DNA of 42,325 bases, from positions 1-42,325 of the forward strand of contig CAJQQZ010000121.1 in NCBI GenBank assembly GCA_905480575.1. The letters run 5' to 3'. A model generated the notes under the pieces. It saw only the letters and a list, made by a program, of their open reading frames with translations. It ran no database searches and was not told where the DNA came from. This document shows, in pieces, positions 19,979 to 36,972 of this stretch (positions within the stretch are counted from its first letter, which is position 1; the number at the start of each line of letters is the position of its first letter). Origin of the DNA: an uncultured Alphaproteobacteria bacterium (GTDB lineage Bacteria > Pseudomonadota > Alphaproteobacteria > UBA7985 > CAJQQZ01). The position numbers and the translations under genes are program-made.

Positions 19979-20662
19979 ATGCAAGAGAAGCCTCATATAT
20001 TAGTGGTCGATGACGACCGACGCCTGCGGGAATTGCTGCAAAAGTTTTTGCTCGACCAGGGCTTTGCTGTGACTGTCGCACGCGACGCACAGGATGCCCG
20101 CACCAAACTTACAACGTTTCAATTTGACGCTTTGATCCTGGATATCATGATGCCAGGTGAGTCAGGTCTTGAGTTAACGGCTGCTCTGCGGGAAGGTGAT
20201 CACGTTCCCATATTGCTGCTGAGCGCGAAGGGAGAAGCCGAAGATCGGATCCTTGGCCTTGAAAAAGGGGCCGACGACTATCTTCCCAAACCCTTTGAAC
20301 CAAGAGAGCTGGTTGCACGATTACGGTCAATCTTGAGACGAAGAGAACAACCCTCTTCCATCATCTCAGGCTTGTTTAGTTTTGGACCTTTCACTTTTGA
20401 TTTAGCCAAAAATGAGCTAAGACAAGACGATGAACTCATCCGCTTGGCTCCTGGTGAAGTAACTTTGTTGTCTACCTTTGCTCAAAGACCGGGGGATCCG
20501 ATCAGCCGAGACGAGTTGAGTGACATGGTCGGTACGCCCGGCAATTTGAGATCCATTGACGTTCAGGTCGCGCGCTTGCGTCGCAAAATAGAGGATGATC
20601 CGCGATTCCCACGCTATCTCCAAACCGTCCGTGGCATTGGATACGTTCTCTTGGCGAACTAA
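19979..20662 (+). CDS. OmpR-family response regulator
   Basis: A 227-aa two-domain regulator. The receiver has the acidic pocket (VVDDDRR, 9-15), phospho-acceptor Asp55 (LILDIMMPGESG), Ser82 and Lys104 (YLPKPFEP). The C-terminal winged helix ends in the usual DPRFPRYLQTVRGIGYVL. It pairs with the sensor kinase gene 53 bp downstream. OmpR/PhoB-type winged helices bind tandem direct repeats with 10-11 bp spacing, so this protein is one candidate binder for the GTTCAG array at 36215-36253, though nothing links them directly. Confidence 0.94.
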   Translation: MQEKPHILVVDDDRRLRELLQKFLLDQGFAVTVARDAQDARTKLTTFQFDALILDIMMPGESGLELTAALREGDHVPILLLSAKGEAEDRILGLEKGADDYLPKPFEPRELVARLRSILRRREQPSSIISGLFSFGPFTFDLAKNELRQDDELIRLAPGEVTLLSTFAQRPGDPISRDELSDMVGTPGNLRSIDVQVARLRRKIEDDPRFPRYLQTVRGIGYVLLAN

Positions 20663-20715
20663 CCGCCCCCCTGCGCCATCTAGCAGGAAAGCCCTTCAAG
20701 CCGCTCAAGCGCATT

Positions 20716-22005
20716 ATGCCGACCACCCTTATGGGCCGGTCGATTGCTATTATCTTGATTCCCCTTATTTTGCTCCAGCTCGTGGCGACTTGGGTGTTCT
20801 ATAATCGCCACTGGGAAGTCGTAACCGAACGTTTGACCAATTCTCTTCGGGGCGAGATTTCCACCGTCATCTATATGTTGGAACGAACTGAAACAAAATC
20901 AGAGCGAGAAGAAGTTTTTAAGATGGCCCGTTGGACAATGGGGCTGCTGGTCGATTGGAAAGAAGGCGATCTGCCCGCTAAACGCAGGCGTAATTTCGCC
21001 TTTCTAGATTCGCGCCTCGCCAAGGCCCTTGATAAACTCGACCGCCCCTTTGCTATCGACACGCGGTCAACGCCGGGTGAAGCAGAAATCCTTGTTCAAA
21101 TGGAGCCGGGCTATCTTCAAGTTTTAGTCAGCCGCGCACGCCTATTCTCCTCAACCACCTACATTTTCATTTTGTGGATGGTTGGTGCTTCCGCAATCCT
21201 ATTCGGTGTTGCTGGTATCTTCCTTCGAAATCAAGTTCGTCCCATTATACGCCTAGCCGAAGCCGCCGAGGACTTTGGCACTGGCCGGTCCTTGGAGGGC
21301 TATAAATCCGAGGGCGCACAAGAAGTTCGCCAAGCGTCCCGCGCTTTTATCAACATGCAACATCGTATCAACCGCCACATCAGTCAGCGCACGCAAATGC
21401 TTTCCGGCGTAAGTCACGATCTGCGAACACCGCTAACCCGGATGAAACTGCAGCTGGCAATGATGCAAGAGAATGAAGACAACGAGAACCTCATTTCAGA
21501 CGTCCAAGAAATGGAAGCTATGATCGATGGTTATCTTGCCTTCGCCCGTGGTGAAGGCACGGAAGAAGCGACCGAGATTAAGATCAAAGACGTTGTTGAT
21601 GAAGTTATCCATGGAGCGGTTAGGAGTGGGCAAACCATCAAACGCACCTCTATGCCTGGCACGAAACTATTTGCGAAACGAAATGCTTTCAAACGCTGTC
21701 TCACGAATCTAGTGAGCAACGCCCATCGCTATGGTGGAGACAAAGCTCAGATCTCTGGCGGTCCAGATGGAAAGGGCTGGTTCCTGATCCACGTCGATGA
21801 CAACGGCCCTGGTATCCCGGCCAAGCAAAGAGGCCTAGCCTTCCAAGCCTTTTACCGCTTTGATAGTTCGCGTAACATAAGCACCGGTGGTGTAGGGCTG
21901 GGCCTGACAATCGCGCAAGACATAGCCAACAATCACGGTGGTAAACTTGAACTCTCCGTGTCGCCCTGGGGCGGCTTGAGAGCAACGATTTCCCTACCGA
22001 TGTAA
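20716..22005 (+). CDS. EnvZ-like sensor histidine kinase
   Basis: A 429-aa inner-membrane kinase: membrane helices at about 10-27 and 149-170 flank a periplasmic domain of about 120 residues. A HAMP linker follows, then the HisKA box with phospho-acceptor His234 (SGVSHDLRTPLTR) and an HATPase domain with N box (NLVSNAHRYGG), DDNGPGIP and GGVGLGL. It would phosphorylate the upstream regulator; the signal is unknown. No Shine-Dalgarno precedes this ATG. The frame is open upstream to 20599 without ATG, GTG or TTG, and the residues just upstream resemble the family N-terminus, so a CTG start (20671) is conceivable. Confidence 0.92.
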   Translation: MPTTLMGRSIAIILIPLILLQLVATWVFYNRHWEVVTERLTNSLRGEISTVIYMLERTETKSEREEVFKMARWTMGLLVDWKEGDLPAKRRRNFAFLDSRLAKALDKLDRPFAIDTRSTPGEAEILVQMEPGYLQVLVSRARLFSSTTYIFILWMVGASAILFGVAGIFLRNQVRPIIRLAEAAEDFGTGRSLEGYKSEGAQEVRQASRAFINMQHRINRHISQRTQMLSGVSHDLRTPLTRMKLQLAMMQENEDNENLISDVQEMEAMIDGYLAFARGEGTEEATEIKIKDVVDEVIHGAVRSGQTIKRTSMPGTKLFAKRNAFKRCLTNLVSNAHRYGGDKAQISGGPDGKGWFLIHVDDNGPGIPAKQRGLAFQAFYRFDSSRNISTGGVGLGLTIAQDIANNHGGKLELSVSPWGGLRATISLPM

Positions 22006-34485: not shown

Positions 34486-36153
34486 TTAGAAATCCTTCGC
34501 TCTATAAGTTTCTCTGCCTTCCAGCATCGTCAGCAAAACCTTGGTTCTATCGATTTTTGATGTATTGATTTTTGTGATATCTCTATCCAAGACAACGAGA
34601 TCCGCTGCCTTGCCTACTTCCAACGAACCTGTCCATTCCTCCTGCCGCATAGAGAATGCCGCATTTATGGTATAGGCCTCAATAACCTCTTTGATAGAAG
34701 GAAGTGATTGATCGCCTCTTGTTAGCGCATTTTTCATGCCGACGAAGGGATTCATCGTCGAAACGTCAAAGTCACTCGACAACGTAAGATTCACGCCAGC
34801 ATCGTAAAACGAGCGAAGAGGAATAGCCTCGTGCCCTCGATCACCAATCAGGTAGCCGACGTCACGATGATAGGCTTTTGGATGTGTCCAATCACCGGCG
34901 ACCTGCATATCGGCGGAAACCCCGAGTTCTCTAAACCTAGCAATGTCAATTGGATCAACAAGCTCCAAATGGGTCAAACGATGCCGTTGCCCCAGGTTAC
35001 CGTTGATCAGTCTTGCTTGTTCAATAGCATTCAGGGCTTCATCGGTGGCGCGGTCGCCGATTGAATGGATGAGAAAATCAAAACCGAGAGGCTCCAACAA
35101 ACTGAGGAATTTGGTCAGCCTTTGTTGGTCAAAATAGTTCAAGCCCCGATTCCGGTCGATCCACCCATAGTCGAATTCATACTCTTTCTTTAAGGCCGCT
35201 GTCGTCAGCGGCGTGATGCCATCAACGTACATCTTGATCTGATTGATCCGCAACAGAGAATCAGAGTTGTTATCATAGAGCTGCTGGAGTGTTTCGATTT
35301 GCCTGTCATCAATGTGCGGGTAAGTCCAAAGAGCCAAGTTAGCCCGAACCGATAGGTTCCCTTCCCGCTCAGCTCTTTGCCAAACCTCGTGGTGTTTTTT
35401 TCGCCAGTAGACACGGGCATCACTGATTGAAGTGATCCCATTACGGGCTAACTCATCAAGGCCCTCCAACAAGCCATGATAAGTGAGATCCAGGCTTTCC
35501 GGCGTTGGTTCCGTGATCTGTTCTCTAATCATATTCCCAGCATTATCCAGAAGGATGCCGTTGGGTTCACCCTTTGAATTCTTAACGATAACACCCCCTG
35601 GAGGATTGGGAGTCTGAGCGGTAATTCCCGCGAGTTCCAGGGCTTTGGAATTTACCCAAATAGCATGAGAAGTCAGTTCCATCGCTGCAATGGGACGCTC
35701 TGAAACAACTTGATCCAAGATCTTCTTGGGGTCGTTTCGAAGATTGAGGATATCTTCGATGTAGTACCCCCAAGCCGTAATCCAGCTTGAGCTTGGATTG
35801 TTCTTCGCACAGGTCTCGATCTTTCTAGCATGTGTTGAGGCAGACTGTCCGTCCGTCAGAACACATGTCGCCTCAGCGCCGTCATAAGCCTCCAGAGGAT
35901 GCATATGAACATCATGGATGCCTGGCATCACAAAAGAACCCTCTAAATCAATCACCTCGCTGTCCGCTTTTATGAAATCTTCAGCGCCTTCGTTTGACCC
36001 AACGAAGCCTAGGGTCCCGTTTTCAATAACGACGGCTTCCACCCAAGGATTACTTGGGTCGACCGTATAAACTCGACCATTTGTCAGCACGAGATCAGCA
36101 GCTGAAACGGCAGTGGCTGAAAAGAATGCAAGCAAAACGAGAAGATGTCTCAC
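34486..36153 (-). CDS. Secreted amidohydrolase, YtcJ-like (COG1574)
   Basis: A 555-aa amidohydrolase-superfamily protein with a signal peptide (MRHLLVLLAFFSATAVSAAD). It has the N-terminal strand domain (LVLTNGRVYTVDPSNPWVEAVV), the metal-binding HDVHMHPLEAYDGAEATC, GDRATDEALNAIEQAR with a ligand-region His just before it (FDFLIHSIGDRA), the late Asp in SSDFDVSTMNPFVGM, and the closing GSLEVGKAADLVVLDRD. YtcJ-like enzymes hydrolyse formamides or related amides; the substrate is unknown. Its stop is directly followed by the start of the broken aguB, so both share a transcript. Confidence 0.9.
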   Translation of the reverse strand: MRHLLVLLAFFSATAVSAADLVLTNGRVYTVDPSNPWVEAVVIENGTLGFVGSNEGAEDFIKADSEVIDLEGSFVMPGIHDVHMHPLEAYDGAEATCVLTDGQSASTHARKIETCAKNNPSSSWITAWGYYIEDILNLRNDPKKILDQVVSERPIAAMELTSHAIWVNSKALELAGITAQTPNPPGGVIVKNSKGEPNGILLDNAGNMIREQITEPTPESLDLTYHGLLEGLDELARNGITSISDARVYWRKKHHEVWQRAEREGNLSVRANLALWTYPHIDDRQIETLQQLYDNNSDSLLRINQIKMYVDGITPLTTAALKKEYEFDYGWIDRNRGLNYFDQQRLTKFLSLLEPLGFDFLIHSIGDRATDEALNAIEQARLINGNLGQRHRLTHLELVDPIDIARFRELGVSADMQVAGDWTHPKAYHRDVGYLIGDRGHEAIPLRSFYDAGVNLTLSSDFDVSTMNPFVGMKNALTRGDQSLPSIKEVIEAYTINAAFSMRQEEWTGSLEVGKAADLVVLDRDITKINTSKIDRTKVLLTMLEGRETYRAKDF

Positions 36154-36214: not shown

Positions 36215-36253
36215 GTTCAGAAACTGTTCAGAAAAGGTTCAGTGAGGGTTCAG
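36215..36253 (+). promoter_or_regulatory. Four GTTCAG direct repeats at exact 11-bp spacing
   Basis: GTTCAG occurs at 36215, 36226, 36237 and 36248, each start exactly 11 bp after the last; a weaker GTTGTT follows at 36259. Tandem hexamers at 11-bp spacing are the hallmark of OmpR/PhoB-type response-regulator sites (two dimers). The array ends 9-10 bp before a -10-like TTAAAA (36263-36268), which is the geometry of a PhoB-type activated promoter that lacks a -35. It lies 74-112 bp upstream of the ATG at 36327. Confidence 0.75.
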
Positions 36254-36326
36254 GCAAGGTTGTTAAAACTGAAATCAACAAGAGAGAAAACATCTTTCGC
36301 TGAATTAAGATCAAAGGAGTAAGACC

Positions 36327-36920
36327 ATGAAAAAACCGACTTCCCACCTTAGCAAAATTGCTCTCGCTAGCTTAGCCCTGATCGCGGCAATTTCTTTTGC
36401 AAGCCTTCCAACTCAAGAAGCCGAAGCCCACAATGGTGGCAAAAAATTCAAATGTTTCACGTTTTATGGTGAACGTATTCCAGGTCTTCTTGGAAAACGA
36501 CAAGCGCGGTACGTTCGCCAAAATGGCGGTAACTGTCACAAAAAACAACACTGGCACCAGCCACAACCGGTTCAACCTGTTTACAACAATCCTTGGCCAC
36601 AGATCGATCCAACGTACGGCAATGGTTTTGGCCAGCCATATGGCGGTGACATTTATGTCTCCCCTCCAAACTATCCGACCGCACCTGCAGTTGTTCATAA
36701 CAATCACGGACACGGATCAGCGAAGATTAGAAAGGCTGTTAGGGCCGCCAAGAACCGTTACCCACGCCTTGGTCGGTTTGTGAGAGCCGAGAACTTCTCG
36801 AGAGGTGGCTTCAAGTACAAGAAATTCACGCTGGTTTTCAAGAAAGGCCACAAAATCAAACGTGTTCGCGTTAAAGCGAACGCCTGGAGCGGTAAGGTGA
36901 AATGGGTGAACAAAATCTAA
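36327..36920 (+). CDS. Secreted His-rich basic protein, possible degenerate PepSY domain
   Basis: A 197-aa protein with a signal peptide (hydrophobic 11-27, cleavage near AEA). The middle is rich in His, Gln, Pro and Asn (HWHQPQPVQPV, VVHNNHGHGS), suggestive of metal binding. The last 65 residues are very basic (SAKIRKAVRAAKNRYPRLGR ... KFTLVFKKGHKIKRVRVKAN) and follow a helix-then-strands pattern ending SGKV that resembles a PepSY domain. No firm family assignment. An AAAGGAG ribosome binding site precedes the ATG. The 11-bp GTTCAG array upstream suggests two-component control. A terminator follows at 36948. Confidence 0.75.
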   Translation: MKKPTSHLSKIALASLALIAAISFASLPTQEAEAHNGGKKFKCFTFYGERIPGLLGKRQARYVRQNGGNCHKKQHWHQPQPVQPVYNNPWPQIDPTYGNGFGQPYGGDIYVSPPNYPTAPAVVHNNHGHGSAKIRKAVRAAKNRYPRLGRFVRAENFSRGGFKYKKFTLVFKKGHKIKRVRVKANAWSGKVKWVNKI

Positions 36921-36947: not shown

Positions 36948-36972
36948 AAGGGCGGCTCGAAAAGCCGCCCTT
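36948..36972. terminator. Bidirectional terminator between the His-rich gene and the bc1 operon
   Basis: A perfect 10-bp stem AAGGGCGGCT (36948-36957) / AGCCGCCCTT (36963-36972) with loop CGAAA. On the minus strand the stem is followed by eight consecutive T (from the A-run at 36942-36949), a strong signal ending the bc1 transcript 26 bp after cytochrome c1. On the plus strand the T-tract is weak (TTAATTCTTT), but it may still stop the gene ending at 36920. Confidence 0.88.

Follow-up and report, generated by a model that had tools for sequence, protein, structure and literature searches.

The PhoP box of enterobacteria consists of (T/G)GTTTA repeats. In Pseudomonas aeruginosa, gel shift and mutagenesis experiments have given PhoP the consensus GTTCAGNNNNNRTTCAG; PhoP also represses retS via this same box, and the published repressing PhoP sites lie between the -10 element and the start codon (PMC3156716). 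In Sinorhizobium meliloti, TTCA-N7-TTCA is found upstream of FeuP-dependent genes and has been proposed as the FeuP site (PMC3616915), and FeuQ is reported to be restrained by FeuN (PMC12486126). The half-site consensus of P. aeruginosa BqsR (CarR) is TTAAG-N6-TTAAG, and in a BqsR promoter with four such pentamers the proximal pair, the last pentamer of which overlaps the -35 element, is critical, with the distal pair making an additive contribution (PMC4682146). PepSY proteins of the DbfQ type have been shown to act on their own kinases (PMC12714742).

The window analyzed here is a 42,325-nucleotide stretch of DNA from an uncultured alphaproteobacterium, an affiliation that the alpha-type tmRNA of the genome bears out. 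It contains an array of four GTTCAG repeats ahead of a gene whose small protein product is predicted to be exported. The array shares with the FeuP motif of the S. meliloti FeuN-FeuP-FeuQ system its 11-bp pitch and TTCA-N7-TTCA pattern but has four perfect copies instead of two, and its motif is identical to the consensus of the Pseudomonas PhoP box. An earlier note on this DNA had considered the hexamer not to be a classic box, a view that these two published motifs contradict. At least two GTTCAG-like direct repeats at an 11-bp pitch, as in a PhoP/FeuP-type operator, are present. BqsR promoters also possess four half-sites, in the form of pentamers with 6-bp gaps, but all four copies in the array read TTCAG and do not conform to the TTAAG-N6-TTAAG operator of BqsR/PmrA; the GTTTA half-sites of the enterobacterial PhoP box are likewise absent from the array. 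The operator code is already published for Pseudomonas PhoP and is not a new kind of switch. What our comparisons appear to add is the conservation of this operator across a bacterial class while the exported target genes changed. We propose that the array very probably serves as operator to a two-component system of the FeuP/PhoP type, encoded on contig C87 of this genome, which would activate the gene for the small exported protein.

The repeat array and its conservation

The four copies of GTTCAG are located on the plus strand at 36215..36220 (the most upstream half-site), 36226..36231, 36237..36242, and 36248..36253 (the promoter-proximal half-site). All are perfect and follow one another at a start-to-start pitch of 11 bp, just as the earlier note had described, and Tandem Repeats Finder independently reports a period of 11 with 4.3 copies at 36215-36261. 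The expectation for four perfect copies arising by chance in the window, calculated from base composition, is approximately 3e-10. There are three exact adjacent GTTCAG pairs in the window, and a scan for further pairs found none better than two mismatches outside the array.

The conservation upstream of orthologs that the earlier note had suggested checking is found in a relative from the same genus (G001). This genome carries an ortholog of the downstream gene (69% identical) preceded by the same four-copy array, with every hexamer base identical (24/24), compared to 13 of 15 spacer bases (87%), 13 of the 16 bases from the end of the array through the -10 element, and approximately 60% of the remaining intergenic flanks.

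Promoter geometry and flanking genes

A -10-like element, TTAAAAC, is located at 36263..36269 on the plus strand. The TTAAAA noted previously at 36263-36268 does lie 9 bp beyond the last GTTCAG, but TAAAAC at 36264-36269, which is kept in G001, is the better frame when aligned with related promoters. The resulting distance of 9-10 bp from copy 4 to the -10-like element matches that in related promoters. When candidate promoters were aligned at their last copy, TA-type -10 elements were enriched 10-11 bp past it (P 0.0015 in a non-redundant set, with hand-chosen -10 weights and promoters that are not all independent), and most candidate promoters have TA at offset 10-11, the fixed distance upstream of a -10 element that marks a PhoP/FeuP-type operator. 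No consensus -35 element was found in the window promoter, as expected if this promoter is activator-dependent. The earlier assignment of the region to an OmpR/PhoB-type activated promoter layout is right.

To the right of the array lies the predicted target gene (36327..36920, plus strand), encoding a 197-aa exported protein. It is followed by a bidirectional terminator-like hairpin at 36948..36972, which probably ends the target transcript and so suggests a single-gene transcript. To the left, the divergent amidohydrolase gene reported earlier is confirmed (34486..36153, minus strand; Amidohydro_3, E 3e-84), with a GTG start at 36153, and is present in G001 as well; it may also be controlled by the array, as the earlier note had suggested.

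As the array sits between divergent genes, the same regulator might instead use it to repress the rightward gene, or mainly to control the amidohydrolase. A minus-strand TATGCT-like element left of the array, kept in G001, would suit the latter, and the repression of retS through this box in P. aeruginosa (PMC3156716) sets a precedent for the former. We nonetheless judge this reading improbable, as the published repressing sites are found between the -10 element and the start codon (PMC3156716), while here the -10 element follows the box, as it does in Pseudomonas oprH. Furthermore, the orientation of the array and its 9-10 bp spacing to the -10 element fit only the rightward gene and match both the candidate promoters and Pseudomonas oprH, and a consensus -35 element is absent from the window promoter.

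Activation of the rightward gene by the C87 system could proceed as follows. The PhoQ-like C87 kinase would phosphorylate the C87 response regulator, which would then bind GTTCAG half-sites head-to-tail as dimers, and four copies at an 11-bp pitch would place two dimer sites, one stacked on the other, along the same helix face. Of these half-sites, the pair nearest the promoter would cover the -35 region, 9-10 bp before the -10 element, and from this position could recruit RNA polymerase to the weak promoter, with the distal pair strengthening output. The target would in this way join an envelope regulon that comprises the regulator's own operon together with exported proteins of the SH3-domain, PepSY, and Cys-rich kinds. 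What the sequences show is the array and its conservation, the association of the box with this regulator's operon in the genome and across the class, the promoter geometry, and the agreement with published boxes; that the C87 regulator binds the array, that it activates, and that the two dimer sites act additively is what we infer.

The predicted target protein

As the earlier note had proposed, the target has a signal-peptide-like N-terminal stretch and is moderately His-rich (4.7% after residue 25). Its middle is of low complexity, rich in H, Q, P, N, and Y, and its C-terminus is predicted to form a helix and four strands. The further suggestion that the protein is PepSY-like is plausible. 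A Pfam search with the 197-aa protein returned no match at E<1, PepSY included, and alignment to a PepSY set by hhalign gave an E-value of 0.011 with a probability of 4%. The single-sequence model has a mean pLDDT of 53 and a best Foldseek E-value of 0.065; residues 125-197 of this weak model align with 4exr and with YpmB (2gu3) at Z 6.5-6.8, scores which unrelated folds also reach. Thus, the C-terminal 70 residues may be PepSY-like, but the resemblance is suggestive only. No target ortholog was found beyond G001 in the other 59 relatives searched, and in this the target differs from those of FeuP, having no counterpart outside its genus in the genomes searched.

Boxes across the genome

The genome-wide scan for pairs at 11-bp spacing, also proposed in the earlier note, was run as a pattern search and identified six exact GTTCAG-N5-GTTCAG boxes in the 4.03-Mb genome compared to none in a control with the box pattern read backwards. 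At two mismatches this excess vanishes (314 matches versus 318 in the control), indicating that the signal resides in near-exact sites. RTTCAG-N5-RTTCAG with TA 8-11 bp beyond it occurs in eight places versus none in the control; two of these, on C22 and C99, have no clear target gene.

Nearly all of the exact boxes precede exported proteins. Apart from the array, an exact box on C87 precedes an operon encoding an exported SH3-like protein, a response regulator, and a histidine kinase, another on C87 precedes the divergent gene of an exported, His-rich protein of 1240 aa, and one on C79 precedes a gene that is cut by the contig end and whose G001 counterpart encodes an SH3-domain protein. Boxes with one mismatch and promoter geometry of the same kind are found ahead of a PepSY protein on C36 (Pfam E 1.6e-5), an exported Cys-rich protein on C53 that is duplicated, and a 49-aa exported peptide on C67; most one-mismatch matches inside coding regions of this genome were treated as chance. 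The C87 operon promoter has four phased half-sites, ATTCAG, GTTTAT (at the second phased position), GTTCAG, and GTTCAG, as does its G001 counterpart with four, and three of the four are present in the C53 promoter. The boxes appear to define a regulon made up of envelope proteins that are exported and in many cases His-rich, in agreement with the envelope regulon envisaged earlier. Like the Pseudomonas oprH-phoP-phoQ system, the C87 system would drive exported envelope proteins together with its own operon, although it would do so in another bacterial class and with other targets.

The 1240-aa protein on C87 (L031:12520-16263) carries long C-terminal H/K/S/W repeats, such as HKKYKSSWH, and possibly binds metal or a polyanion. 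The PepSY gene on C36 (L032:1556-1935) lies directly after a transposase-like ORF and yet bears a box. In other families the PepSY gene usually adjoins the regulator, while here it is on a separate contig; the PepSY modulator seems to have moved but remained in the regulon.

The candidate regulator

Nine OmpR-family regulators are encoded in the genome. When P. aeruginosa PhoP was used as the query, the best match was the C87 response regulator (C87:10952-11614, minus strand; 42%, 180 bits), ahead of the next at 152 bits and of the window regulator at 117 bits. In the opposite direction, the C87 regulator finds a BqsR-like regulator best in P. aeruginosa (50%) and PhoP second (43%), and the reciprocal best hit with PhoP fails; the C87 regulator thus differs from Pseudomonas PhoP in being only 42-43% identical to it and not its reciprocal best hit. 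The partner kinase (C87:9562-10986, minus strand) has PhoQ as its best NCBIfam match (180 bits, below the cut-off), and its best P. aeruginosa match likewise comes from the BqsR-like system. In a phylogenetic tree, the C87 regulator, its orthologs, P. aeruginosa PhoP, and the BqsR-like regulator of strain PA7 (2559032) form a clade with support of 99/99; a long-branch regulator of this genome, on C29, also falls into the PhoP/BqsR clade, though its position is unsure. By sequence, the C87 system belongs to the PhoP/BqsR/FeuP subfamily, and the box in its own operon gives this genome a subfamily regulator that is itself box-bearing, as for a PhoP/FeuP-type operator.

A Sinorhizobium regulator located behind an 83-aa exported, FeuN-like protein shares 63% identity with the C87 regulator. 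Its record is unannotated, but its operon layout and the size of FeuN suggest that it may be FeuP. In contrast to the FeuN-FeuP-FeuQ arrangement, the gene ahead of the C87 regulator encodes an SH3-like protein and neither FeuN nor a PepSY protein. The C87 recognition helix, EVFVGRLRKKL (SNTVEVFVGRLRKKL), is nearer to that of PhoP, EVLVGRLRRKL (ANVIEVLVGRLRRKL), than to that of BqsR, EVHVNHLRRKL (SNVIEVHVNHLRRKL). C87 and BqsR differ in both helix (VGRLRKKL versus VNHLRRKL) and half-site (TTCAG in the array versus TTAAG), and the likeness to PhoP fits a half-site of TTCAG and not TTAAG, which is a correlation. The PA7 regulator 2559032 has a PepSY gene ahead of it and a kinase gene after it, and was taken as BqsR since this is the layout given for PA2658 and BqsS (PMC12714742). 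Upstream of this BqsR-like operon, at PA7 2558336 (L240), is a hybrid box, ATTCAGCTTCAATTAAG, with one TTCAG and one TTAAG half-site.

With nine OmpR-family regulators in the genome and several families that bind 11-bp direct repeats, the array could be read by a different member, such as the regulator on C58 or the window regulator at 19979..20662 (plus strand), which the earlier note had named as a possible binder. The chance of this appears slim. No box was found upstream of seven other OmpR-family regulators of this genome, with an eighth control too short upstream to count (that on C58 was covered over only 170 bp), while the C87 operon has one, and the box tracks the C87-type regulator across families. 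The C58 regulator groups with a different clade, and the window regulator was rejected as the reader of the array, being OmpR-like (NCBIfam OmpR, 233.6 bits against a cut-off of 331), outside the PhoP/FeuP clade, and without a box upstream. The C87 regulator is thus the favored reader. UzcR of Caulobacter was set aside as a source of the motif, as the UzcR paper prints no consensus. Within the window, the OmpR-like regulator is followed by a histidine kinase gene (19979-22005 for both), an EnvZ/OmpR-like pair unrelated to the array.

Distribution of the box and its regulator

The 1.2 kb upstream of 18 orthologous regulators contain 13 boxes with at most one mismatch, compared to 0.05 expected from shuffles; these are spread over nine of the 18 loci and six families. 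The other half of the orthologous operons have no detectable box, including those of Sinorhizobium and Shinella within the 1.2 kb searched. Exact boxes are nevertheless found in Sinorhizobium sp. K101 and Shinella sp. before exported, often His-rich proteins. An exact box is present in 13 of the 16 genomes with a regulator ortholog versus 11 of the 45 without one (P 1.7e-4, confounded with genome size). Genomes with the ortholog hold 35 boxes versus 6 in the reversed control and the other genomes 12 versus 7, so that only the former clearly exceed the control. Boxes in G002, G004, and G008 (family f2, same order) were treated as chance, as these genomes have no regulator ortholog (at E 1e-60) and no clear exported target.

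Outside this order, the regulator is preceded in most orthologous operons by a gene for an exported protein of the PepSY type. This placement of PepSY beside the two-component genes is that of DbfQRS-type modules, and differs from the present genome, where the box-bearing PepSY gene is elsewhere, on C36. Perfect three-copy arrays are found in only 3 of 385 genomes of the class, and were rejected as a class-wide marker; the two-copy box is the usual form. In a sister family (G003, G005, and G007), the gene behind a four-half-site array encodes an exported protein of the OmpA family (L072, L074, and L078) and not a His-rich one, suggesting that unrelated targets are served by the same promoter layout.

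A public scan for three-copy arrays returned, among the matches listed, Pseudomonas oprH promoters mixed with simple tandem repeats of other phyla, and matches were thus counted as evidence only where spacers differ and a promoter follows. Many of the oprH promoters listed have four GTTCAG copies at an 11-bp pitch, with TA(G/C)TCT approximately 11 bp after the last copy. Many other matches listed, mostly from Bacteroidota or otherwise unrelated, are plain tandem repeats of 11 bp whose spacers are identical, and the window array could by analogy be a slipped-strand minisatellite of no regulatory function. This is very hard to reconcile with the differing spacers of the window array, its perfect and conserved hexamers, and the isolated two-copy boxes of the same geometry that precede other exported-protein genes, and we regard it as highly improbable.

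As the putative operator of the C87 system, the array takes what was a bare repeat to a named circuit with a candidate regulator, kinase, operator, and approximately six target promoters in an uncharacterized alphaproteobacterium. The class-wide evidence supports the published candidate FeuP motif and links it with the Pseudomonas PhoP box, which has been used in experiments. A broader and distinctly tentative possibility, which we hold to be somewhat short of an even chance, is that the GTTCAG-N5-GTTCAG code, the four-half-site layout, and the -10 distance have stayed fixed from gammaproteobacterial PhoP to alphaproteobacterial FeuP-type regulators while exported proteins unrelated to each other took over as the strongest targets: OprH in Pseudomonas, the OmpA-family protein in the sister family, and the His-rich, possibly PepSY-like protein in the window. 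The recognition-helix signature VGRLR, as opposed to VNHLR/VHHLR, would then set TTCAG versus TTAAG specificity within this subfamily. If the proposed binding is true, this would clearly exemplify an operator that is conserved while its targets turn over, and FeuP/PhoP-type regulons would be readable from sequence across the Alphaproteobacteria.

Two other repeat families were observed. The Bacteroidales MAG RGIG3262 contains many dispersed GTTCAGTCGTT repeats that face their own inverted copies, often in intergenic regions (L126, L129, L130, L131, L145, L153, L156, L178, and L218), an unrelated family that is perhaps terminator-like. In the Bacteroidota MAG bin141, 11-bp tandem repeats of the GTTCAGTTAGG type are dispersed over many loci (L133, L151, L157, L171, L172, L198, and L216).
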